Origin: Neisseria sp. Marseille-Q6792
Lineage (GTDB): Bacteria > Pseudomonadota > Gammaproteobacteria > Burkholderiales > Neisseriaceae
Length of the DNA: 64,000 nucleotides
Direction: 5' to 3'
Assembly: GCF_943181435.1 (NCBI RefSeq)
Contig: NZ_OW969598.1
Location: forward strand, 806,001-870,000
Part shown: piece by piece, positions 32,954 to 45,102 of the stretch
Layout of the letters: each line of letters opens with the position of its first letter
Numbering within the stretch: position 1 is the first letter of the stretch
Notes under the pieces: generated by a model
What the model was told of the DNA's origin: nothing
What the model saw: only the letters and a program-made list of their open reading frames with translations
Databases searched by the model: none
Made by a program: the position numbers and the translations under genes

Positions 32954-34231
32954 TTATGATTCATAATCATCAACCTTTTTCTGAAACTCAATTTGAAGTT
33001 CTAATAATATCTTGTTAGCTTTTTCTCTAATATAACGTTGATTATAGAAATTACCTGATTTTTCTGACGTATGCCCCATGAGATGCTGTCTTATCTTTGC
33101 CTCTTTTTCAGAGGAGATAAAATCTTTATGGGAAGAATCATGATTTAAATTTTTATTATTCTTATCCACTTTTCGTGAAAAATATAAGTTCCATTCATGA
33201 CGAAAAATATGCGGATGAATAATCGAGAATCTTGGATCTACCTTTTTCATCATTGGTACAATAACGTTATCAAAAGAACTTGTACTAATTGGACTCCCTT
33301 GAGTTTTTCCTTTTCGATGAGTTACAAACAAATATGGATGTGTATTCGCATTGGGAACTTTAGAACGATAATTCATAATATAATCATTAAGGAGTTGAGC
33401 TATCTTTTGTGATATTGGCAAGCGCCTTTCTTTAGTTTTACTAACTGCCTGAATTTTTCTTGTATCAAATTTATCATCATGCGTTCGCTTTATTGTAACT
33501 GATGGTTTAGCAGTCCCTATATCGATAAATGGTATTTTAAGTGATAATAGTTCTCCCCTTCTAATTTCTAATTCTTTCAGTAAGATAAACATTAAATGGT
33601 TTCTTTTTCTTATTCCGATATCTTGAAACGGATTATTAGGATTTGAAAAGTTTGCAATAGACATAAACTCATCTAACAATCCATCGGGTAACTCACTTTC
33701 TGGTTTTATAGATAATGCTTTATGATTCTTAGGTCTTACTCCTTTAATTAGCATAAGTAATTTTTTTAATTTCTCAACATATTCGTTAGATGTACTTATT
33801 ACTTTAGATAGAAATAAAATGTATTCTGAAAACGTTGTTAACCTATTGTATTGGTGACTAAGGGATACAGACGGGTAAATATCAATAAATTGAGTTCGAC
33901 CTTTCATTAACACACTTTTTTTCGTACTAATTACATTCTTTTGCTTTTTTACATTTAGTCTCATATGTTGAATAAGCGATTCTAATTGATTTTCTGTTAA
34001 GAGTATCTCTTTATGAATTAGATCACTAATAACAAGATTATTCTCTTTTTCCCAGCTCATTAACCATTGTATGATTCCTAGTTTATTTCTAATGGTATTT
34101 ACTGCGGATTGATTACGTAGTTCTACTGTCACCCATAGGGTTGAATAAAAATCAGGTATACCAGTTTTCTCATTAACTAACAGAGAAAAGCGTTCTCCAT
34201 TTGAAAACAGGATTGTTTCTAGTCTATACAT
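32954..34231 (-). CDS. Tyrosine recombinase/integrase, first gene of the trio
   Basis: A 425-residue AT-rich gene. The C-terminal catalytic domain has the tyrosine-recombinase set: Arg in EIRRGELLSL, HPHIFRHEWN (His-x-x-Arg), the HLMGHTSEKSGNFY block with its His, and the Tyr nine residues after it (NFYNQ). The N-terminal part is a core-binding domain. It overlaps the next gene by 11 bases. Long N-terminal extension and operon structure fit the recombinase trio elements (Tn554 TnpA or GmtY type) better than a phage integrase. It looks intact. Base composition differs sharply from the neighbouring ssb. Confidence 0.8.
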   Translation of the reverse strand: MYRLETILFSNGERFSLLVNEKTGIPDFYSTLWVTVELRNQSAVNTIRNKLGIIQWLMSWEKENNLVISDLIHKEILLTENQLESLIQHMRLNVKKQKNVISTKKSVLMKGRTQFIDIYPSVSLSHQYNRLTTFSEYILFLSKVISTSNEYVEKLKKLLMLIKGVRPKNHKALSIKPESELPDGLLDEFMSIANFSNPNNPFQDIGIRKRNHLMFILLKELEIRRGELLSLKIPFIDIGTAKPSVTIKRTHDDKFDTRKIQAVSKTKERRLPISQKIAQLLNDYIMNYRSKVPNANTHPYLFVTHRKGKTQGSPISTSSFDNVIVPMMKKVDPRFSIIHPHIFRHEWNLYFSRKVDKNNKNLNHDSSHKDFISSEKEAKIRQHLMGHTSEKSGNFYNQRYIREKANKILLELQIEFQKKVDDYES

Positions 34232-34300
34232 ATCTACTAAATTTACAGAGTTTATATATAAATACTAACAAATAAGATAACAAACGTTAAAATAAGTGTA

Positions 34301-34333
34301 AAAAAAGAGAAACCTTGTTATATAAGGTTTCTC
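34301..34333 (-). terminator. Rho-independent terminator after ssb
   Basis: On the minus strand GAGAAACCTT (34333-34324) pairs with AAGGTTTCTC (34316-34307) with a six-base loop, followed by TTTTTT (34306-34301). It lies downstream of ssb. Confidence 0.8.
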
Positions 34334-34378
34334 TAGGTTTTAATAATTTATTTTTTACAAAATTCAAGTATATAGAAT

Positions 34379-34921
34379 TCAGAACGGGATATCGTCGTCA
34401 ATATCCTCAACCGGTATGGCATGGGCTGCGGGAGCCGGTTGGCGGCGCGGCGCGGCAGGTGTTTCTTCGGGTGTTTCTTGGGGATAAGACGGGGCAGCAG
34501 GAGAAGCTTGCTGCCTTTGCGGCGCAGAACGTTGGTAGCCCTCCTGACTCTGACCATAACCTTCCTCGTAAGGCGCGCCGCCGCTGTTTTCATTGCGCCC
34601 GCCCAACATTTTCATTTCGTTGGCGACAATATCGTAAGCGGTGCGTTCGATGCCGTCTTTGCCTTGGTATTTGCGGCTTTGGATTTTGCCTTCCAAATAA
34701 ACCAGCCCGCCTTTTTTGAGGTATTGGCCGGCAATTTCCGCCAGTTTGCGGTACATCGTGATGTTGTGCCACTCAGTACGCTCTACACGTTGGCCGTTGC
34801 GGTCGTTCCATGTTTCGCTGGTAGCGACTGAAAAATTGCAGACGGCTTCGCCGTTGGGCATATAGCGCACTTCGGGATCGCGTCCGAGGCGGCCGATAAG
34901 GATGACTTTGTTCAATGACAT
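34379..34921 (-). CDS. ssb: Single-stranded DNA-binding protein
   Basis: A 180-residue protein. The N-terminal OB fold ([20 protein letters not shown], then [21 protein letters not shown]) is followed by a Gln/Pro/Ala-rich linker and an acidic tip DIDDDIPF that recruits partner proteins. It protects ssDNA in replication, repair and recombination, and in Neisseria during transformation. The gene ends 147 bases from the recombinase element and starts three bases after the stop of the upstream MFS gene, so the two share a transcript. Confidence 0.96.
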
Positions 34922-34924
34922 TTT

Positions 34925-36307
34925 TTAAACTCCTGTGATGATTTTTTCAGCGGCAGCCTGATCGAAACCCTTCTGCAACACTTTGAGATAGACGGTCTGC
35001 CTGTCGAAACTGAAACCGATGTCTTCCACGCCTTCGAGTTGCGACAAGGCGCATTGCAAACCGTCCTGATTGCCCTGCCACACGCCGCCGACAGGGTAAC
35101 TGAGGTTTTTGACGGGCTTGGGCGCGGGCGATAAAACGGCAATTACCAGCCACAGCAGCATCAATATGCTGCAAAAGGCAAACACGCCGGAAAAGCCGTA
35201 TTTTTGAAACAGCAAGCCGCCTGCCGCGCCGCCGGCAAACAGTCCGAGCGACTGCATCGTGTTATACACACCCATCGCCGTACCCTTCAGGTCGGACGGC
35301 GCGATTTTGGAAACCATAGACGGCAGGCTCGCTTCCAACACATTAAAACCGATAAAGTAAACAACCAAATAAGCGGTAATCAAGCCTACCGAGCGCATAC
35401 CGGACAGCAAACCGAGCTGCGCCGCCGCGATGCAGACGATGCCCAAAACAAAAACCTGTTTGAGCTTGTTGCGCGTCTCTCCGACGATAATCAGTGGAAC
35501 CATCACCACCAAGCCCGTAATGGTCGAGGGCAGATAGACTTTCCAATGCTGTATTTTTTCCAAACCGAGCTGGGTCATCGCGAAAGGCAGCGCGGTAAAC
35601 AATGCCATTTGCGCGGCGTGCAGGGCGAAAATGCCGAAATCGAGCGTCAGCAGCCTACGGTTTTTCAAAACTTCGCCTATGCGCGAAGGCTGCGCCTGCG
35701 TATCTTCGTGCAGCTTGGAAACCTCCGGGTCGGGAGTCATCCACGCCACCACGCCGATACTGGCGACGGTTAACATACCGGTCAGCAGAAACAAGCCGCG
35801 TACGCCCACCGCGTCGGCAATCACAGGGGCAACGACGAGGCTGACCGAAAACGTCAGACCGATACTCAAACCGATCATCGCCATTGCGCGGGTACGCACG
35901 CCGTCGCGTGTCAAATCCGCCAGCAGCGCGGTAACCGCCGCACTGACCGCTCCCGCACCCTGTATGGCGCGTGCGGCGACCAGCATGGGCAGCGTATCGG
36001 CGGCGGCGGCAAGGAAGCTGCCCGCCGCAAACACAATCAGCCCGACATAAATGGTTTTCTTGCGCCCGAATTTGTCGGAGGCGATACCCAAAGGCAGTTG
36101 CAGCAATGCCTGCGTCAGCCCGTAAATGCCCATTGCCAGCCCGACCAGCGTTTTGTTGCCTTCCGCGCCGGGCAGCGAGGCGGCATACACCGCCAATACG
36201 GGCAGCACGAGGAACATACCCAGCATACGCAGCGCGTACACGCCGGAAAGCGTCGTACTGGCGCGCCATTCGTGCGGAAACATTTGGATGCGGTTGTCTC
36301 TTGCCAT
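34925..36307 (-). CDS. MFS transporter
   Basis: A 460-residue inner-membrane protein of the major facilitator superfamily with about 12 transmembrane segments; the first loop motif is GIASDKFGRKKTIYVG and the drug-type TM5 region carries AARAIQGAGAVSAAV. The C-terminus has an extra soluble domain of about 60 residues (GGVWQGNQDGLQC to IITGV), like the YajR group of MFS proteins, which have a ferredoxin-like domain there. The start was set at 36307 (MARDNRIQMFP) because the longer frame reads through an uptake sequence (ATGCCGTCTGAA gives MPSE). The substrate is unknown. Confidence 0.85.
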   Translation of the reverse strand: MARDNRIQMFPHEWRASTTLSGVYALRMLGMFLVLPVLAVYAASLPGAEGNKTLVGLAMGIYGLTQALLQLPLGIASDKFGRKKTIYVGLIVFAAGSFLAAAADTLPMLVAARAIQGAGAVSAAVTALLADLTRDGVRTRAMAMIGLSIGLTFSVSLVVAPVIADAVGVRGLFLLTGMLTVASIGVVAWMTPDPEVSKLHEDTQAQPSRIGEVLKNRRLLTLDFGIFALHAAQMALFTALPFAMTQLGLEKIQHWKVYLPSTITGLVVMVPLIIVGETRNKLKQVFVLGIVCIAAAQLGLLSGMRSVGLITAYLVVYFIGFNVLEASLPSMVSKIAPSDLKGTAMGVYNTMQSLGLFAGGAAGGLLFQKYGFSGVFAFCSILMLLWLVIAVLSPAPKPVKNLSYPVGGVWQGNQDGLQCALSQLEGVEDIGFSFDRQTVYLKVLQKGFDQAAAEKIITGV

Positions 36308-36316
36308 AAATAATTT

Positions 36317-36351
36317 TTCAGACGGCATTAACAGTTGCAATGCCGTCTGAA
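36317..36351. repeat. DUS pair, diverging orientation
   Basis: TTCAGACGGCAT (36317-36328) and ATGCCGTCTGAA (36340-36351) lie between the lytic transglycosylase and the MFS gene. The pair can terminate transcription from the transglycosylase gene. Confidence 0.7.
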
Positions 36352-36417
36352 TTTCCAATAAACAGATTTCGGATTATACAGGATTCGCTACGTTTCGGTT
36401 GCAGCCCGGATTCAAAA

Positions 36418-37041
36418 TCAGTGCCACTGCCAGCGGTTGCGCCATGCACCCAAAACGGCATTCGGATACTTATTGCTGCCGAGGCTGCCATTAAAACGGG
36501 CAAGTGCGCGAACGATGTTGCCTTTTTCAAGGTTCTGGTAATGGCGCAAAATCGTGCAGCCGTAACGCAGGTTGGTACGGATGTCGAACAGATTGTGCGC
36601 CGGTTTGCCGATGTAGTTTTTCCAAAACGGCATAACCTGCATCAGGCCGCGCGCACCGACTCCACTGATTGCATACTGGCGGAACGCGCTTTCCACCTCA
36701 ATCAGCCCCAACACAATCTGCGTATCCAAACCGGCGCGGCTGCTTTCATACTGGATATTGACCAGCAGCCTGCGCCGCTCCTCCTCGTCGGGGACGAACC
36801 TTGCCAAACGTGCCGACATCGCGGACAACCAACGTTCGCCCTCTTTCGGATTGTCGAACACCAGCCTCGGCGGATTGACGCTGCCGACGGAACTCCTCAT
36901 CACGGAAGCCACATCGTCGGCAAGCGTTTCTTCACGTTGCGCGCCGGCTTGTGCCAGCGGGCTGAGCAACAGCGCGCCGGCGGCACACAGCAGGCGGCGT
37001 CGGTACGTGTTGACGGATAAATTATCGGTCGTTTTGTTCAT
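36418..37041 (-). CDS. Lytic transglycosylase (SLT family)
   Basis: A 207-residue exported enzyme that cleaves peptidoglycan to 1,6-anhydromuropeptides. The signal region (RRRLLCAAGALLLSPLAQA) includes a twin-arginine-like start. The SLT domain has the catalytic Glu in LIEVESAFR, then GARGLMQVMPFWKNY and LRYGCTILRHYQ, and ALARFNGS. The start at 37041 (MNKTTDNLS) is preferred; the longer frame begins within an uptake sequence. It is short for the family, close to the single-domain transglycosylases. Confidence 0.85.
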   Translation of the reverse strand: MNKTTDNLSVNTYRRRLLCAAGALLLSPLAQAGAQREETLADDVASVMRSSVGSVNPPRLVFDNPKEGERWLSAMSARLARFVPDEEERRRLLVNIQYESSRAGLDTQIVLGLIEVESAFRQYAISGVGARGLMQVMPFWKNYIGKPAHNLFDIRTNLRYGCTILRHYQNLEKGNIVRALARFNGSLGSNKYPNAVLGAWRNRWQWH

Positions 37042-37246
37042 AGGGAATGGGGCGCGTCCGGACGTTTCAGACGGCATTAAATATTCAAACAGACATGATT
37101 GCTTTCAACGCGAAAAACCGCGCGCAAAATCTAAGCACGGCATATCGCCCTGCCCTTTTCAGGCAAATCTCGATTTTACCGCTCTCAAGAACGCTTGTCC
37201 AAACAGGCACAGGCAACACCGCCCGGGCATTTCCCGTTTTCACCGG

Positions 37247-37615
37247 CTATCTGTCGTCCGGATTGTGCAGCAGCACCATCAGCGCATCACGCTTTTCGGG
37301 CGGCAGCAGGCGGAAATATTTCAACAGCAGAGCTTCTTGCGGCGAAGCCGCACCTTCCGTTCCGGAGAGCCTGCCGTGGCGCAGCCATTCCGCGCTGGTA
37401 TCCAGCCATTTTGCCAGTGTCTCGATTTTATCCGGAGTCGGAATCGACCTGCCGACCAGCCAATGGTGGAACGCCTGCGTACTGACAGGCTGATTGGGAT
37501 GGCGCAGGTTGAAGCGGTTGGCGAGGCTGGCATTGGACAGCTCGTCCAAACCCGCGAGGCGTATTGCTGTTTTCAAACGTTCACTGAAATCGGTTTTATC
37601 TTGTTCGGTATGCAT
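37247..37615 (-). CDS. XRE-family transcriptional regulator
   Basis: A 122-residue cytoplasmic protein with a helix-turn-helix at about residues 25-75 (ASLANRFNLRH ... VSTQAFHHWLVGRSIPTPDKIETLAKWL), typical of phage-repressor-like regulators. The C-terminal helices may dimerise. It is divergent from the surface lipoprotein gene with 157 bases between the starts, so it could regulate that gene; this is inference from position. Confidence 0.82.
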   Translation of the reverse strand: MHTEQDKTDFSERLKTAIRLAGLDELSNASLANRFNLRHPNQPVSTQAFHHWLVGRSIPTPDKIETLAKWLDTSAEWLRHGRLSGTEGAASPQEALLLKYFRLLPPEKRDALMVLLHNPDDR

Positions 37616-37684
37616 AATGGCGGATTATGAATAGCCGACTGTTGCCTTATTTAAACAGAATAATTGATAGTATTAACAATTTAG

Positions 37685-37713
37685 TTGTCAGTAAAAGTAA
37701 ATATGGGCATAAT
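37685..37713 (+). promoter_or_regulatory. Candidate sigma-70 promoter of the lipoprotein gene
   Basis: TTGTCA (37685-37690), 17 bases, CATAAT (37708-37713), about 60 bases upstream of the start codon. It lies in the shared region with the divergent regulator gene. Confidence 0.5.
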
Positions 37714-37772
37714 AGGAAGCGGTTTACACAACCATAAATTTATTTACTTAATTTCTGAAATTTTGGGGATTT

Positions 37773-38630
37773 ATGATGACTTTGAACAAAGTTTTCGCAT
37801 TGAGCATGATTGCCTTGAGCTTAGCGGCTTGCAGCAGCAACGGTACTGCCAACAACGGCAACAACTCTTTAGTTTCCGGTCCGGGCGTGGCAACACAAGG
37901 CGCGGTTGTTACTTCTTTTTACAGCGTAAAAGAGGATGTAAGGAAAGATGTCAACAGTTGGGCAACCCAAAAGGGGTTCAAACCTGGAGAGGTTGAGTTG
38001 GCATCAGTTACCCTGCAGGTTGGCAGCGTCTCCTCCAAGGGCAGCAATATCAATTTGTTTGATGTCGTACCGGCACAAAACAAGGTTCAAAAAGTAGATA
38101 CTGTAACCACGGCACGTGTTAAAGCCGGCGGGGACAATTACGAGCTGATTTCAAAAGGTCGGGCACATATCTACCGTCAAAATTATTCTTTGATTGCCGG
38201 TCTTTCCGAACGGGAAAGAATCGAAAAAGACCCATCCGGTATCGAGAGAAGCTTGCGTGCCGATAAGGACGTTGATTTGGTTGTGAAAGGTTCTGCTACC
38301 AAAATCCTGCCAGCTGCGGGCAAATTTAGCTACGCAGGTATTGCAACCGATGGCGAAAAACAAGGTGCTTTGTCTTATATAGTTGATTTCGAGAAAAAAA
38401 ACGGCAAAGGCGAAATTACCGGAATCGGCGAAACCGACATCACTCTGAGTGAAGCGCCTATCAAAGAATTCAGCCATACCAACGAATTCGATAACACAGT
38501 AATTAAGGGACAGGGCATCGAAGGTTCTAATTACAAACTCGGCTTCTTCGGTCCTAACGCAGAAGAAATCGTCGGTGCGGTTACTCAGGGTACAAATAGC
38601 ATCGGCTTTGCCGGCTCCCGTTCGCATTAA
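37773..38630 (+). CDS. Surface lipoprotein with factor H-binding-protein-like barrel (probable Slam client)
   Basis: A 285-residue lipoprotein (lipobox LAAC near residue 20; either of two adjacent ATGs could start it). The C-terminal about 100 residues resemble the fHbp/TbpB-type eight-stranded barrel: YIVDFEKKNGKGEITGI against fHbp YTIDFAAKQGNGKIEHL, and YKLGFFGPNAEEIVGAV against YSLGIFGGKAQEVAGSA (fHbp sequences from memory). Such proteins are exported to the cell surface by Slam translocators, and a Slam gene follows 113 bases downstream. The N-terminal domain is not recognised. The ligand is unknown. It is not fHbp itself, which differs in the N-terminal half. Confidence 0.75.
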   Translation: MMTLNKVFALSMIALSLAACSSNGTANNGNNSLVSGPGVATQGAVVTSFYSVKEDVRKDVNSWATQKGFKPGEVELASVTLQVGSVSSKGSNINLFDVVPAQNKVQKVDTVTTARVKAGGDNYELISKGRAHIYRQNYSLIAGLSERERIEKDPSGIERSLRADKDVDLVVKGSATKILPAAGKFSYAGIATDGEKQGALSYIVDFEKKNGKGEITGIGETDITLSEAPIKEFSHTNEFDNTVIKGQGIEGSNYKLGFFGPNAEEIVGAVTQGTNSIGFAGSRSH

Positions 38631-38645
38631 TCCCGCCTGATACAA

Positions 38646-38683
38646 ATGCCGTCTGAAACCGGAAACGGTCTTTCAGACGGCAT
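38646..38683 (+). terminator. Inverted DUS pair after the surface lipoprotein
   Basis: ATGCCGTCTGAA (38646-38657) and TTCAGACGGCAT (38672-38683) between the lipoprotein and the Slam gene; transcription may partly read through. Confidence 0.75.
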
Positions 38684-38743
38684 TTCGACCATTTGACTGC
38701 GCGGTTTGCCCGTCCGGTCCCTTGCCCTGAAACTGTTTGACTT

Positions 38744-40411
38744 ATGAAAAAATTTGCTTTGCTTCTTTTGTCCGTACCGGCGGCGGCCGTTGCCGAAACG
38801 TCCGTTTTACCTATACCCGTGTCGAAACAGGTGTTCGTGGACGGCAAATTCGACGATAGGATAGTGCCTGCCGAAAGGCTTGAAAGGGCTGACGAAACGG
38901 AAATTCCGGTTCTGCCGCTTGCTTCCTATGCCCCATCTTTTGACGAACAGATCGACAATGCCTTCCGCCTGTTGCAGCGTGCCGCGCCGAAGCGGGCTGC
39001 CGCGCCTGTTATTGCGTCTGTCGGCAAGGCAGAAGAGACCGAAATCAAGCCTGTGGCAACACATAAGAAGTTTTCCAACGAGGCGGCTTTCGGTACGGGT
39101 GCGTCCGTGCCGTCTGAAACCGTTGCAGCCGGAGAAGCCGCCGAAGCCGTTTCAGACGGCAATGCCTCTCTTGCGGGTTTGGAAGAGCAGATCAACCGCG
39201 CCGTCGTCGCCCGAGATTGGGACACGCTGCAAACGCTGTTGGAAAGCTATCGCGCCCTGCCGGATTTCAATCCGGTTCTGCACGATTACGCACTGGGCGG
39301 TTTGCGCCGCAGCCAGTTGCGCCATAACGAGGCGGTGGCTTTGTATCGCGGCATTTTGGCGCAACAGCCCGATTTGGCGTATCCGCGTTTCGATTTGGGT
39401 GTGATGCTGTTTGAAAACAAACAGTACCGCGAGGCGAAGGCGGAATTGGAGCGGGCGAAACCCGATTTGCAGCCACCGATGCAGCAGCTTGCCGACCGCT
39501 ATCTTGCCGCCATAGACAAGGCTCAAGGCTGGAAGCCCGATGTGTCGCTGCAATACGAGCAGACGGACAATGTGAACAACGCTTCGTCCGAAAAAACGAT
39601 TGAATTTGCAGGAAAAAGCTGGACAAAAACCGTCGACAGCCTACCGCAAAAGGCACACGGTTTGCGCTACGGCTTGGGCGTGTCGCGCGAAATCAATGCG
39701 GGCGGGCATCATTTCCTCTACGGCGACATCAGCGGCGGCGGCGTGCACTATTGGGATAACAAAGATTTCAGCGAACAGAGCCTGCGCCTGTCGCTCGGCT
39801 ATAAAAACCGTTCAGTAACGCGCTCGTTCGGCATCGTGCCGTTTATCGAGCAAAACCTCTTAGGCGGCAGCCGATACAATTTCGTCGGCGGCTTCAATGC
39901 CGATTTCTCCCAACGCTTGAGCGAACGCTGGCGGCTGACACTAAACGCGGGCAATATGTGGAAGCGTTATCAGGAAGACCGCACAGCCGCCCGATACGAC
40001 AGCCATATGCCGCTGGCGGGTGCGACGCTAATGTATTCCGCGCCGAAAGACTGGCTGCTTTACGGCGGTGCGGACTGGTCGCACGACATGACGAAAGAGG
40101 CGGAACAGGCTTCCGTCCGCAAGGGTTTGCGTGTCGGCGCGGTCAAAACGTTCGACGGCGGCTTGGGTCTGCGGGCAAACCTGCGCTATACACGCAGGAC
40201 GTTTGACGCACCCGGGACCATTGTGTACCGCTTCCCGCGTAAAGACCACGAATATCAGGCAAACCTGTCGTTGTGGCACGACAAAATCTCTTGGAAGGGA
40301 TTTACGCCGCAACTCAATTTCCGCTATCTGAAAATCGACAGCAATATGAAAAGTTTTTACACACGCAAAAACATGCAGATTTTCATGAGCGTGGAAAAGG
40401 ATTTCAAATAA
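38744..40411 (+). CDS. Surface lipoprotein assembly modulator (Slam), outer membrane
   Basis: A 555-residue outer-membrane protein with a signal peptide (MKKFALLLLSVPAAAVAE), an N-terminal periplasmic part with TPR helices (about residues 140-260; NEAVALYRGILAQQPDLAYPRFDLG) and a C-terminal DUF560 beta-barrel of about 14 strands, ending in an aromatic-rich strand (MQIFMSVEKDFK). This is the Slam layout. Slams move TbpB-like lipoproteins to the surface; the meningococcal copy at this genomic site is, from memory, Slam2 (NMB1466), linked to HpuA display. Two uptake sequences lie in its coding region, where they encode PSET and SDGN. The neighbouring lipoprotein is a likely client. Confidence 0.85.
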   Translation: MKKFALLLLSVPAAAVAETSVLPIPVSKQVFVDGKFDDRIVPAERLERADETEIPVLPLASYAPSFDEQIDNAFRLLQRAAPKRAAAPVIASVGKAEETEIKPVATHKKFSNEAAFGTGASVPSETVAAGEAAEAVSDGNASLAGLEEQINRAVVARDWDTLQTLLESYRALPDFNPVLHDYALGGLRRSQLRHNEAVALYRGILAQQPDLAYPRFDLGVMLFENKQYREAKAELERAKPDLQPPMQQLADRYLAAIDKAQGWKPDVSLQYEQTDNVNNASSEKTIEFAGKSWTKTVDSLPQKAHGLRYGLGVSREINAGGHHFLYGDISGGGVHYWDNKDFSEQSLRLSLGYKNRSVTRSFGIVPFIEQNLLGGSRYNFVGGFNADFSQRLSERWRLTLNAGNMWKRYQEDRTAARYDSHMPLAGATLMYSAPKDWLLYGGADWSHDMTKEAEQASVRKGLRVGAVKTFDGGLGLRANLRYTRRTFDAPGTIVYRFPRKDHEYQANLSLWHDKISWKGFTPQLNFRYLKIDSNMKSFYTRKNMQIFMSVEKDFK

Positions 40412-40419
40412 GCGCAAAA

Positions 40420-40453
40420 ATGCCGTCCGACCGTTTTTCAGACGGCATTTTTT
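40420..40453 (+). terminator. Inverted DUS pair after Slam, one arm imperfect
   Basis: TGCCGTCCGA (40420-40429) and TTTCAGACGGCATTTTT (40437-40453) with a T run; the first arm has one mismatch to the uptake sequence. Confidence 0.7.
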
Positions 40454-40571
40454 GCTGTCGGAAATATACCGTCGGCAACATCTGTGAGCAGAATCAAAAA
40501 CAGCGCATCATTTATTGTCAACGCCCGCGCCGTCAGAGTAACATTGCGTTTTTCCCCCACCGGTATCCGCC

Positions 40572-42080
40572 ATGACCACCAATCCCGCAAACGTCCTTGC
40601 CTCCGTCGATTTGGGTTCTAACAGTTTCCGCCTCCAGATTTGCGAAAACAACAACGGACAGTTGAAAGTCATCGATTCCTTCAAACAGATGGTGCGCTTC
40701 GCCGCCGGACTGGACGAACAGAAAAACCTGAGTGCCGCCTCCCAAGAACAGGCTTTGGACTGTCTGGCAAAATTCGGCGAACGCCTGCGCGGCTTCCGTC
40801 CCGAGCAGGTGCGCGCCGTGGCAACCAACACATTCCGCGTTGCCAAAAACATCGCGGGCTTCCTGCCCCGTGCCGAAGCGGCATTAGGTTTCCCCATCGA
40901 AATCATCGCCGGGCGCGAAGAGGCGCGGCTGATTTATACCGGCGTGATCCACACCCTTCCCCCCGGCGGCGGCAAAATGCTGGTTATCGACATCGGCGGC
41001 GGTTCGACAGAATTTGTCATCGGTTCGACGCTGAATCCCGACATTACCGAAAGCCTGCCCTTGGGCTGCGTAACCTACAGCCTGCGCTTCTTCCAAAACA
41101 AAATCACCGCCAAAGACTTCCAAGCCGCCATTTCCGCCGCCCGCAACGAAATCCAGCGCATCAGCAAAAATATGAGGCGCAAAGGTTGGGATTTCGCCGT
41201 CGGCACATCGGGTTCGGCAAAATCCATCCGTGATGTGCTTGCCGCCGAAATGCCCCAAGAGGCGGACATTACCTACAAAGGAATGCGCGCCCTCGCCGAA
41301 CGCATCATCGAAGCCGGTTCGGTCAAAAAAGCCAAATTTGAAAACCTGAAACCGGAACGCATCGAAGTTTTTGCCGGCGGACTTGCCGTGATGATGGCGG
41401 CGTTTGAGGAAATGAAACTCGACAGGATGACCGTAACCGAAGCCGCCCTACGCGACGGCGTGTTTTACGATTTGATCGGGCGCGGTTTAAACGAAGATAT
41501 GCGCGGACAAACGGTTGCCGAGTTCCAACACCGCTACCACGTCAGCCTCAATCAGGCGAAACGCACCGCCGAAACCGCGCAAACCTTTATGGACAGCCTC
41601 TGCCACGCCAAAAACGTTACAGTTCAAGAGCTTGCCTTGTGGCAACAGTATCTCGGACGCGCCGCTGCGCTGCATGAAATCGGTTTGGACATCGCCCACA
41701 CCGGCTATCACAAGCATTCCGCCTACATCCTCGAAAACGCCGATATGCCGGGCTTTTCACGCAAAGAACAGACCATACTTGCCCAACTGGTCATCGGTCA
41801 TCGCGGCGATATGAAAAAAATGGGCGGCATTATCGGCACCAACGAAATGTTGTGGTATGCCGTTTTGTCCCTGCGCCTTGCCGCCCTGTTCTGCCGTTCG
41901 CGCCAAGACCTGTCTTTCCCGAAAAATATGCAGTTGCGCACGGATACGGAAAGCCACGGCTTCATCCTGCGTATTGACAGTGAATGGCTGGAACACCACC
42001 CCCTGATTGCCGACGCATTGGAATATGAAAGCGTCCAATGGCAAAAAGTCAATATGCCGTTTAAAGTTGAAGCCGTCTGA
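40572..42080 (+). CDS. ppx: Exopolyphosphatase (Ppx/GppA family)
   Basis: A 502-residue cytoplasmic enzyme that removes terminal phosphates from polyphosphate or from pppGpp. The N-terminal actin-like fold has DLGSNSFRL (phosphate 1), AGREEARLIYTGV, and DIGGGSTEF (phosphate 2); the C-terminal domain has the HD-like ALHEIGLDIAHTGYHKHSAYI. The length fits Ppx/GppA proteins. In meningococcus a Ppx lies beside Slam2. The protein is intact, and an inverted uptake-sequence pair follows. Confidence 0.92.
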   Translation: MTTNPANVLASVDLGSNSFRLQICENNNGQLKVIDSFKQMVRFAAGLDEQKNLSAASQEQALDCLAKFGERLRGFRPEQVRAVATNTFRVAKNIAGFLPRAEAALGFPIEIIAGREEARLIYTGVIHTLPPGGGKMLVIDIGGGSTEFVIGSTLNPDITESLPLGCVTYSLRFFQNKITAKDFQAAISAARNEIQRISKNMRRKGWDFAVGTSGSAKSIRDVLAAEMPQEADITYKGMRALAERIIEAGSVKKAKFENLKPERIEVFAGGLAVMMAAFEEMKLDRMTVTEAALRDGVFYDLIGRGLNEDMRGQTVAEFQHRYHVSLNQAKRTAETAQTFMDSLCHAKNVTVQELALWQQYLGRAAALHEIGLDIAHTGYHKHSAYILENADMPGFSRKEQTILAQLVIGHRGDMKKMGGIIGTNEMLWYAVLSLRLAALFCRSRQDLSFPKNMQLRTDTESHGFILRIDSEWLEHHPLIADALEYESVQWQKVNMPFKVEAV

Positions 42081-42093
42081 CCTTTACAAACCA

Positions 42094-42123
42094 AATGCCG
42101 TCTGAATGATGTTCAGACGGCAT
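42094..42123 (+). terminator. Inverted DUS pair after ppx
   Basis: ATGCCGTCTGAA (42094-42105) and TTCAGACGGCAT (42112-42123) with a 6-base loop. Confidence 0.8.
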
Positions 42124-42296
42124 TTCCCTATCCACAACACCCAAAAAAACCGACTGCCTTGTATCTACGACAGCAGACGGGTCGATTTGCCACTCCAAAC
42201 AAAAACCTTATATATTGCACCCCAGTTAAGGGAGTGTAAAATTTGATTGAAATCCCTTGACAAATTCGATTAACCGATATTTAAGAGGGGTCTAAA

Positions 42297-43262
42297 ATGT
42301 CATTCCAGCAGGAACTTCAAATAAACCAGACGGCAGACGCGAAGCGTCCGCCGCTTCCTTGTCTAAATAGTAACAACTGCATTGACACAGAAAACCCTAA
42401 TCAAAACAACACCAAACAAACCCCCGCTTTTTACGAAAAATTCGCCAAAACAGACCAAAATCTAAACGAGTTTTCTACCTCGTACAAAAAATCTTCACAT
42501 GCCTTAGAGCTAAACGTAAAACAGTTCATTGAAACGTTTGGAATCGAAAAGTGCGGATTCCTTACACTCACTTTCGCCGACGACGTGCAAGACGTTAAAG
42601 AGGCGAGCCGCCGCTTTCACAGCCTCCGTACAAACTTTCTTAAAAAGCATTTTGAAAACTATATTTGCGTATACGAACGCATGAAAAGCGGTCGTATACA
42701 TTTTCATCTCATCGTAAACACACGCCAAGACATCCGCCGTGGTCTGAATTTCAGACAAATCCAAGCCCGTAATTACACAAGTGCCAACAAAAACCTGAGC
42801 CAACTATGGCAAGTTCTTCGGGAAAACATGGAAAAGTACGGTTTCGGGCGTTCCGAACTGCTGCCAGTCAAAACCAACAGCAAAGGACTTGCGCGATATG
42901 TCGGCAAGTACATTGCAAAACACATTAACAGCCGTCTGCCCGAAGACAAAGGCTACCGCCTTATCCGTACAACAATCGGCAAAAAACAATTGTGGAAGAT
43001 TGCGACAAGCAATTTTTCGTTTGTATCGGAGGGTTCGCGCAAATGGCGCGAAAACCTCAAAAATTGGGTTTACTGCATTGAGCCGCTGATTAAAGCGCAT
43101 GTAGAACTTTTTTACGGAATCCAACTGAAACCCATGAACGAAGAGAACTACTTATATGCGCGGCAAATTCAGCCGACCCGAATAAGACCGAGCAAGTCTT
43201 TCCATAACCCGCGTACATGGTGCAAACCATCCCGTCAAAGCAGAGCAGGACTTAAGGCATAG
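42297..43262 (+). CDS. Solitary HUH-type rolling-circle replication initiator-like protein
   Basis: A 321-residue protein. FLTLTFADDVQDV is motif 1 and GRIHFHLIVN contains the His-hydrophobic-His (HUH) metal motif; the catalytic Tyr is likely in ARYVGKYIAKH. These are features of replication initiators of filamentous phages (G2P-like) and rolling-circle plasmids. The protein is lysine- and asparagine-rich and its codon use is less GC-biased than that of its neighbours. No other phage or plasmid gene lies beside it. It has its own TTGACA element (42257-42262) and terminator, so it could be a single-gene remnant or a small satellite. Confidence 0.75.
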   Translation: MSFQQELQINQTADAKRPPLPCLNSNNCIDTENPNQNNTKQTPAFYEKFAKTDQNLNEFSTSYKKSSHALELNVKQFIETFGIEKCGFLTLTFADDVQDVKEASRRFHSLRTNFLKKHFENYICVYERMKSGRIHFHLIVNTRQDIRRGLNFRQIQARNYTSANKNLSQLWQVLRENMEKYGFGRSELLPVKTNSKGLARYVGKYIAKHINSRLPEDKGYRLIRTTIGKKQLWKIATSNFSFVSEGSRKWRENLKNWVYCIEPLIKAHVELFYGIQLKPMNEENYLYARQIQPTRIRPSKSFHNPRTWCKPSRQSRAGLKA

Positions 43263-43266
43263 ATAA

Positions 43267-43295
43267 AGCGGCAACCGGATGGCTGCCGCTTTTTT
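43267..43295 (+). terminator. Rho-independent terminator after the HUH gene
   Basis: AGCGGCA (43267-43273) pairs with TGCCGCT (43284-43290) and is followed by TTTTT, ending the rep-like gene just after its stop. Confidence 0.8.
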
Positions 43296-43478
43296 GTAAA
43301 GATGATCGGTACCGATTCACTCATTCTTACATCAGAATCACAATACATATGGAGCACCTAAATCCCCTATTTCTGCAAACAATTCCCCGACCATCTCCAT
43401 CAGGACAGAAAACTTGTTGCAGCCACCTTCCTGAAAGGGCTTGGAAAACTCAAATGCATTATGGGATTTTTGAATACC

Positions 43479-44024
43479 TCAATAATGGCGGCGGCGGAAA
43501 TAAAACATCCCCTCACTGTCGATTTCCAGCACATAGCGTCCGTTCTGCACGGCGGCATATCCGCTTTTCCCCGTCTGGTAAGGTTGCAGTGCGGCATGCG
43601 AGACCAGGTAATCCGTCAGCTTCCCGCCGTCTTGCGCGACATTGTCCACCAGCTTGGCAAACAAGGTATGACACACGCCGTTTGCCGCCCAACCTGCCGG
43701 ACCGCCCTTATCGTCGGTTTCCATGCATTTGCCGCTGATGACTTCCAAGTCGTTGGGATGCTTGCCGATCAGTTGCAACACATTCTGTTCCGACAAGCCC
43801 TCAATCGGATAAGTCAGCTGTTTTTTGCCTTCAGCCGTTTTTCCTTCTTGCACCCCGCCCAGAGCCAAACCGGCAATCGCCGTATTGTCGATATATTTGA
43901 CTTTGAAAACCGGTTTCGGCGCACCCTGCACTGCATTTTGCGGCTGTTCCGCCGTATTTTCGGATTTACCGCAGGCGGCAAGCAGCAGGCAGCCGCTTAA
44001 CACGACAAAAGATGTTTTAAGCAT
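43479..44024 (-). CDS. Hypothetical lipoprotein
   Basis: A 181-residue lipoprotein (lipobox LLAAC at about residues 14-18). The mature part starts with a Gln/Asn/Pro-rich linker and has no domain I recognise; one Cys pair (SGKC, NGVC) may form a disulfide. The ORF ends in a Tyr/Phe/Arg-rich tail (EGMFYFRRRHY). It lies next to trpS on the same strand and may be co-transcribed in part. The function is unknown. Confidence 0.72.
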   Translation of the reverse strand: MLKTSFVVLSGCLLLAACGKSENTAEQPQNAVQGAPKPVFKVKYIDNTAIAGLALGGVQEGKTAEGKKQLTYPIEGLSEQNVLQLIGKHPNDLEVISGKCMETDDKGGPAGWAANGVCHTLFAKLVDNVAQDGGKLTDYLVSHAALQPYQTGKSGYAAVQNGRYVLEIDSEGMFYFRRRHY

Positions 44025-44047
44025 TCCACACTCCTGATGGTTTCAAA

Positions 44048-44087
44048 ATGCCGTCTGAAACACGGACAATGGATGTTCAGACGGCAT
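44048..44087. terminator. Inverted DUS pair between lipoprotein and trpS
   Basis: ATGCCGTCTGAA (44048-44059) and TTCAGACGGCAT (44076-44087). It lies after the trpS stop, on the 5' side of the lipoprotein gene. Confidence 0.75.
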
Positions 44088-44091
44088 GGGT

Positions 44092-45102
44092 TTATTTCAA
44101 AGGACGGATACCGACCGCATCACGTACCTTATTCAAAAGTTCGCGCGCTTCTTTGCGCGCTTTGGCCGCGCCTGCCTGCAGGATGTCTTCGATTTGCGAA
44201 GGATTGGCGGTCAGCTCGTTGTAGCGTTCGCGCGGTTCTGCCAGCTCGGCGTTGATTTTCGCCGCCAAAAGTTTTTTGGCTTCGCCCCATGCCAGGCCTT
44301 CGGCCAGCATTTGTGTGAACGCTGCTGTTTCAGACGGCATGGAGAAGGCCTTGTAGATTTCAAACAAAGGGCTTTCGTCAGGCTGTTTCGGCTCGCCCGG
44401 CTCTTTCATGTTGGTGATGATTTTGTTGACCGATTTTTGGGTTTTCTTGTCGTTTTCCCAAAGCGGAATGGTGTTGCCGTAGGATTTGGACATTTTGCGT
44501 CCGTCCAAGCCGACCAAGAGTTCGACGTTTTCGTCGATTTTCACTTCGGGCAGGGTGAAGAGTTCTTGGAAGCGGTGGTTGAAGCGGCCGGCAATGTCGC
44601 GCGCCATTTCGACATGTTGGATTTGGTCGCGTCCGACGGGAACTTCGTTGGCGTTGAACATGAGGATGTCGGCAGTCATCAGAATCGGATAACTGAACAA
44701 ACCCATTTCCACACCGAAATCAGGATCTTCCTGATTGTTTTCTGCATTTGCCTGTACAGCGGCTTTGTAGGCATGGGCGCGGTTCATCAAACCCTTGGCG
44801 GTGATGCAGGTCAGAATCCAGTTCAATTCCATCACTTCGGGAATGTCGCTTTGGCGGTAGAAGGTGGTGCGCTCGGGGTCGAGTCCGCAGGCGAGCCATG
44901 TGGCGGCAACGGCTTGGGTGGATTGGTGAATCATCTCCGGCTCGTGGCATTTGATGATGCCGTGGTAATCGGCGAGGAAAAGGAAGGATTCGGTATCTGG
45001 GTTTTGCGCCGCGCGGACGGCGGGGCGGATGGCGCCGACGTAGTTGCCCAGATGCGGGATGCCGGTGGTAGTTACGCCGGTCAGAACTCGTTTTTTGCTC
45101 AT
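44092..45102 (-). CDS. trpS: Tryptophanyl-tRNA synthetase
   Basis: A 336-residue class I aminoacyl-tRNA synthetase that charges tRNA-Trp in the cytoplasm. The Rossmann signature is [16 protein letters not shown] (HIGH motif variant HLGN) near residue 12, and the KMSKS loop is [14 protein letters not shown] near residue 205. Length and order fit the family. The C-terminal helical domain ends near [12 protein letters not shown]. Confidence 0.96.

Follow-up and report, generated by a model that had tools for sequence, protein, structure and literature searches.

What does a lipoprotein gene that resembles the gene for factor H-binding protein (fHbp) do next to a gene for a Slam translocator: is it another fHbp, or does it belong to a unit of its own? 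The question arises in Neisseria sp. Marseille-Q6792, in a stretch of 64,000 nucleotides (NZ_OW969598.1, positions 806,001 to 870,000 of the forward strand), which we call the window and in whose coordinates all positions are given. The original prediction, made from the sequence alone, was that the lipoprotein (LP) has an fHbp/TbpB-type barrel and is a surface-exposed client of the adjacent Slam; we confirmed the observation as a whole, and its interpretation is supported. We place LP among the Slam-dependent surface lipoproteins as a new member, with putative display, export and ligand. Three results go beyond the prediction: the regulator recurs as a third component, the three genes behave as a cassette, and opa takes the place of the cassette's middle in two pathogen-like genomes. 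The complete picture, which we hold with good confidence, is of an fHbp-fold, Slam-dependent surface lipoprotein encoded, in this commensal-type Neisseria, in a cassette with a regulator and a Slam. The main features are:

37088..40476, no strand: the whole cassette (regulator, LP and Slam), bounded by comparison with genome G015, which is without it
37247..37615, minus strand: XRE-type regulator, phage-repressor-like, 122 amino acids (PHROGs transcriptional repressor matches to E 1.5e-7)
37773..38630, plus strand: LP, lipoprotein with predicted fHbp fold, 285 amino acids (lipobox Cys20, handle about residues 45-175, C-terminal barrel about residues 176-285)
38744..40411, plus strand: Slam, 555 amino acids (signal peptide, variable linker of about 125 amino acids, TPR and SlipAM barrel; PF04575, PF24575)

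LP has the predicted fold of fHbp

The lipobox of LP (LAAC, residues 17-20) was read by eye from the translation. LP matches FHBP_C (PF08794) with 73.9 bits, against a cut-off of 28.1. When the predicted model of LP was compared with the PDB, it showed the fHbp fold, with a handle and a barrel, and the C-terminus is modeled as an eight-stranded barrel of the TbpB/fHbp type. All 32 matches in a profile search of the PDB were fHbp-type chains, TbpB or LbpB. The C-terminal barrel claimed from the sequence is thus seen by domain match, by model and by PDB comparison; structure prediction against fHbp and TbpB, which had been proposed as a check, gave a model with the barrel present and PDB matches of fHbp type.

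Like fHbp (GNA1870 of N. meningitidis), which is a published client of Slam1, LP is a lipoprotein with an FHBP_C domain and the same predicted overall fold, and among the matches listed, relatives of LP already carry the database label "factor H binding family protein". LP could be a functional commensal factor H-binding protein, that is, a distant fHbp that does the same job via the same contacts, but we consider this quite unlikely. Unlike fHbp, LP is encoded at a different locus, which has a Slam and a regulator of its own. Its score on the fHbp equivalog model (NCBIfam NF041466) is 40.3 bits, far below the cut-off of 200, and its identity to fHbp entries in the PDB is 23-29% in most full-length structural alignments. 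Glu304 and Glu283, which are named in the title of PDB entry 4aye, are presumably the fHbp residues that contact factor H. The place of Glu304 is not kept: in the sequence alignment it is Thr271 in LP, three residues past the FGPNAEEIVG/FGGKAQEVAG block, and across 68 aligned relatives of LP it is N in 41, T in 20, D in 4, and E, Y and a gap in 1 each. The place of Glu283 is Ile249 or Glu250, varying with gap placement, and residue 250 is Q in 33 of the same 68 relatives and E in 19. Also, N. polysaccharea has, apart from this locus, a stronger match to FHBP_C, whose open frame there has only 186 amino acids. A direct assignment of LP as fHbp is ruled out by the equivalog score and the separate locus.

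Two other comparisons place LP in a wider family. By description, LP is like PmSLP of Pasteurella multocida, a Slam-dependent and Slam-adjacent surface lipoprotein; PmSLP, whose known ligand is complement factor I, is from another species (PMC12080921). A 2025 survey has an "fHbp-like" group of type XI secretion system cargo, whose lipoproteins are grouped by the same C-terminal domain as in LP (PMC12282271).

Some relatives of LP have other architectures. Three from other Neisseria-genus genomes (L116 5056-6501, L121 4864-6333 and L129 7467-8879) have 470-489 amino acids, with long low-complexity stretches N-terminal to the same barrel; their matches to HC2, extensin and HRP were taken as spurious. 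A Moraxella metagenome-assembled genome (L005 6749-8843) has a tandem pair of FHBP_C-type lipoprotein genes upstream of one Slam.

The adjacent Slam is of a third neisserial type

The next gene had been described as a Slam with TPR and DUF560 parts, and this was borne out: both the SlipAM domain (PF04575, 213 bits over residues 263-554, cut-off 22) and the TPR_Slam domain (PF24575, 78.7 bits over residues 146-234, cut-off 35.2) score above their cut-offs. The LP and Slam genes lie on one strand with a gap of 113 bases in the window, in N. polysaccharea and in N. viridiae. In the linker N-terminal to the TPR, the Slam copy of G011 is missing about 90 of the roughly 125 residues.

For a tree of Slams, we extracted 77 open reading frames of at least 400 amino acids and removed 14 copies that were cut by locus ends, which left 63 rows. 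The window Slam clusters with the copies from N. polysaccharea, N. viridiae and G011 (support 100/100), and it sits in a 22-row clade (100/100) that also has a second Slam in G002 and in G011 (47-48% identical; the G002 one has its own LP). An LP-family gene was present in the fetched flank for 13 of these 22 Slams. There were none for the 31 Slams of the opposite group, which is weak (77/64), and none for its starred 25-row core, which includes Slams of G025, G021, G011 and G002. These adjacency counts should be read as minima, since many loci carry only about 1.5 kb of flank. The Slams of Pasteurellaceae G109, G115 and G130, which accompany an LP and a regulator, lie outside the 22-row clade.

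The window Slam is 27% identical (residues 86-537) and 26% identical (residues 137-377) to the two other full-length Slams of G025; the first of these (L077) lies in the opposite tree group and the second was outside the tree sampling. The window Slam is therefore neither of them, and represents a third type in Neisseria, which has relatives of its own. Like the Slam1/TbpB-LbpB-fHbp and Slam2/HpuA systems of type XI secretion, the window pair joins an outer-membrane protein with TPR and SlipAM domains to a barrel lipoprotein client. It differs from them in its separate Slam clade, its linked divergent regulator and the long variable linker before the TPR. LP might instead be a heme/hemoglobin capture protein for iron supply, similar to hemophilin or HpuA, but this is unlikely: at 26-27% identity to the other two Slams of G025, the window Slam is not the HpuA-specific Slam2 either way; the best fHbp structural match is about 5 Z units above that for the hemophilin/HpuA-like reading; and the longest open reading frame in 34000-44500 has 555 amino acids, none being of TonB-receptor size.

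That the neighbors of Slams are often their clients is a published rule (185 of 353 Slam homologues adjoin a lipobox gene; Hooda 2017, PMC5449769), and it is strengthened here by the LP-family genes at 13 of the 22 Slams in the clade. Given this linkage, the adjacent Slam probably passes LP to the cell surface.

A divergent regulator is the third part

An XRE regulator was predicted to be divergent from LP and was found so, on the minus strand. Its protein was matched in 11 of 46 Neisseria-genus genomes. Eight of these have a full-length regulator with 57-98% identity (G001, G002, G011, G013, G016, G007, G043 and G039; the match in G007 includes one stop codon), and in all eight, its divergent neighbor is an LP-family gene. 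Three of the eight come with caveats: the LP frame is interrupted in G011, LP is cut by the contig end in G039, and the Slam of G016 is on a separate contig. Of the other three matches, one is a 41% identical relative in a G038 region that has no LP, and two, in G025 and G021, are C-terminal remnants. That the regulator is a chance neighbor is ruled out by the linkage in eight of eight genomes; it belongs to the LP-Slam unit as a recurrent third part.

The regulator was also matched in 46 of 140 Pasteurellaceae genomes. The five closest, with 56-61% identity, are from Ursidibacter, G097, G147, G150 and G082, and in Ursidibacter (L006) both LP and Slam are present. All three genes also occur in G109, G115 and G130, where the identity of the regulator is 39-40%. 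Around the Pasteurellaceae matches we fetched 33 regions, which are part of a longer match list; 6 have LP beside the regulator, 3 of the 6 have a Slam as well, and Ursidibacter adds another case with both. In the 21 LP-less regulator regions that were viewed (20 from Pasteurellaceae, and G038), the next genes are mostly unrelated.

Two candidate control sites lie in the region of the divergent gene starts:

37609..37633, no strand: candidate operator, inverted repeat TATGCATAAT-5-ATTATGAATA over the regulator start codon (10-nucleotide arms, 90% complementary)
37685..37713, plus strand: promoter-like site for the LP gene, TTGTCA, 17, CATAAT (10/12 matches)

The TGCAT and ATTAT of the candidate operator are invariant in 8 aligned loci, including Ursidibacter, of which four are near-identical, with TGCAT partly coding. 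A natural guess is that the inverted repeat is a repressor site. There are 5 promoter-like sites in 3.7 kb, versus a mean of 2.5 in shuffles, so the evidence for the LP promoter is weak.

The linked regulator gives access to the question of how the switching of a Slam and of its client is coordinated. The words "regulator", "helix-turn-helix" and "lactamica" have 0 occurrences in the main text of the 2025 survey (PMC12282271). A literature search, with most subscription papers and all supplements outside its reach, found among the papers listed no published description of the locus, the regulator or the opa replacement that is described below.

The three genes behave as a cassette

In G015 (L213), DNA homology to the window ends at 37087 and restarts at 40477, the two points being separated by about 150 other bases. 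The regulator, LP and Slam are thus jointly absent from this site, beside ppx, and no regulator match was found anywhere in G015. Each end of the cassette has an exact 10-base uptake word close by, one slightly outside it (37066-37075) and the other slightly inside (40437-40446). Beside ppx, an intact cassette is seen in the window, in N. polysaccharea and in N. viridiae, with protein identity of 91-98% for all three genes. G011 has a different allele of LP, with DNA homology over only about the first 22 and about the last 34 codons. Around the sets of genes in G013, G043, G007 and Ursidibacter arcticus, we found no match to the genes that flank the locus in the window (ssb, MFS, SLT, ppx and trpS), which implies that regulator, LP and Slam recur as a set in more than one location. 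In this, the locus has the behavior of a cassette.

Several observations weigh against our reading of LP and its neighbors. LP scores 51.4 bits on NCBIfam NF041636 ("Slam-dependent surface lipoprotein"), below the cut-off of 80, so the class name rests on fold and context and not on this model. Nine of the 22 Slams in the clade are without a recognized LP neighbor, two of the nine owing to a contig end. LP-Slam pairs without the regulator occur in N. weixii, G040, the second pair of G002, Moraxella, G036 and G038, and G040 has flanking sequence in common with the regulator-bearing G013. (The flank comparison was noisy, and this is the sole use we made of it.) In the regions from G097 and G147, LP is present and no Slam was found; the region from G150 is cut off within LP; and G082 lacks both LP and Slam. 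The LP frame is interrupted in G011, and some N. lactamica entries for LP seem to be frame-shifted or truncated. Finally, other Slams in the same genomes might export LP, as six close genomes have 3-5 SlipAM matches each, fragments included.

If another Slam of the cell exported LP, then the adjacent Slam would serve a different client. Slam1 of N. meningitidis does serve TbpB, LbpB and fHbp, and the genes for TbpB and LbpB are distant from it (PMC5449769). However, the pairing of LP and Slam recurs across several chromosomal contexts, and the two were lost together at the ppx site, so we think this arrangement improbable. The broken copies, namely the cassette in G025 and G021 (see below), LP in G011 and the truncated N. 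lactamica entries, could also mean that the locus is a decaying leftover without present function. This is very improbable, as the three genes are intact and highly similar in the window, N. polysaccharea and N. viridiae, and as 43 of 120 relatives of LP among the matches listed have 281-289 amino acids, at least 90% identity and 99-100% query coverage.

Three database proteins related to LP (P0072, P0073 and P0091, two of the three named N. lactamica) seem to be in a different frame from the signal peptide or to have none, which may mean that some of the population naturally carries a broken LP gene. The frame-shifted alleles led us to consider phase variation of LP, but no repeat tract was shown to cause such switching, and we do not claim it.

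We propose that the cassette provides a regulated surface lipoprotein. Expression of LP would be controlled by its own divergent regulator of the phage-repressor type, acting on the divergent promoter. As expected from knowledge of the family, Sec would export LP, Cys20 would be the site of lipidation, and Lol would take the lipoprotein to the outer membrane; the Slam encoded 113 bases downstream would then pass it to the cell surface. There, the conserved barrel would present the variable N-terminal handle, which may bind a soluble host factor; the ligand is most likely a complement regulator or a nutrient carrier other than factor H. That the cassette occupies different positions in the genomes of commensal Neisseria and Pasteurellaceae would presumably reflect spread by transformation.

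N. lactamica has been described as being without fhbp (PMC5607398, PMC8265630). Although so described, N. lactamica and its relatives carry LP, with its predicted fHbp fold, and LP is a plausible commensal surface antigen.

An opa-bearing segment replaces the middle of the cassette in two genomes

37320..39574, no strand: stretch replaced by an opa-bearing segment in G025 and G021 (from where blastn homology ends and restarts)

Homology to the window ends at 37319 and restarts at 39575, at the same base in G025 and in G021. What is left over in these genomes is the C-terminal end of the regulator and a cut, interrupted Slam; in G025, the match to the Slam begins at residue 276-277 and is split. 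Between the breakpoints of G025 lie a gene of the Opa family (PF02462, E 1.3e-41) and an open reading frame for a Y1-type transposase (E 2.3e-5). In G021, opa is entered by two contigs, one from each side, and both stop within it (C28:23040-23342 of 23344 bases, and C26:3-173); the orientation is that of G025, from which we infer a bridging opa gene and, with it, the middle of the replaced stretch. Thus, at the ppx site of G025, and presumably of G021, the regulator and Slam are cut and LP is gone. The junction sequences resemble the ends of Correia repeats.

Among six close genomes, only G025 has the capsule family PF05159, and there are 12 opa-type matches in G021 versus 5 in G025. We therefore read G025 as meningococcus-like and G021 as gonococcus-like, with one genome for each. 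In G025 (L114 6807-8342), ppx is split in two overlapping frames, beside the cut Slam.

These genomes may explain an unassigned gene of the meningococcus, NMB1466, which was named a third Slam of strain MC58 (Grossman 2021, PMC8406197). nmb1466 adjoins opaD, and primers within ppx were used for the opaD locus (PMC3521020). NMB1465 is an opa gene (PMC3029278) with a Correia element located before it (PMC2649163); judging by the primer names, NMB1465 would be opaD. In G025, the cut Slam has opa where LP stands in the window. Because G025 and G021 share their breakpoints and NMB1466 is next to opaD, NMB1466 is most likely a relic of a Slam of the window type, with G025 compared as a meningococcus-like stand-in for MC58.

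An ancestor of the capsule-bearing genome and the opa-rich genome would once have carried the cassette beside ppx, before an opa-bearing segment replaced the middle of the cassette. More broadly, we lean toward a history in which a transferable cassette of regulator, LP and third-type Slam was ancestral at the ppx site of the human Neisseria group, and in which opaD, with Correia-type repeats on either side, overwrote it in the ancestor shared by meningococcus and gonococcus. If true, this would explain the third Slam of the meningococcus and would give a testable difference between commensals and pathogens at one chromosomal site, where a complement- or nutrient-type lipoprotein would have been swapped for an adhesin.

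Surroundings of the locus

To the left of the locus are ssb, an MFS transporter and a lytic transglycosylase (SLT). The right side has ppx, then genes for a replication protein of phage type and for a small lipoprotein, and trpS. Four of these names (ssb, MFS, ppx and trpS) come from reading the translations. When 7 kb of the right flank was compared with the 46 genus genomes, the best and sole full-length match was N. polysaccharea ATCC 43768 (G001), at 94%.

The uptake word GCCGTCTGAA has 53 exact copies in the window, versus 0.11 expected, and two of these form a pair between LP and Slam:

38648..38681, plus strand: inverted uptake-word pair, exact GCCGTCTGAA at 38648 (plus) and 38672 (minus)

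A terminator scan reported no plus-strand terminator at 38648..38681; from its inverted arrangement and place, the pair is a possible terminator of the LP transcript.

Between ppx and trpS, 42297-43262 on the plus strand encodes a replication initiator of the filamentous-phage type (PF23343, E 1.2e-12; PHROG for rolling-circle initiation, E 1.6e-14), of which G002 and G011 have only C-terminal scraps at the same place. A second lipoprotein gene (43479-44024, minus strand) encodes 181 amino acids with the lipobox LAAC and no Pfam family, and this protein is 82-97% identical beside trpS across the related genomes compared. Directly left of ssb, 32954-34231 on the minus strand encodes a tyrosine recombinase of 425 amino acids (Phage_integrase, E 5.4e-9), which possibly marks the end of a mobile element.
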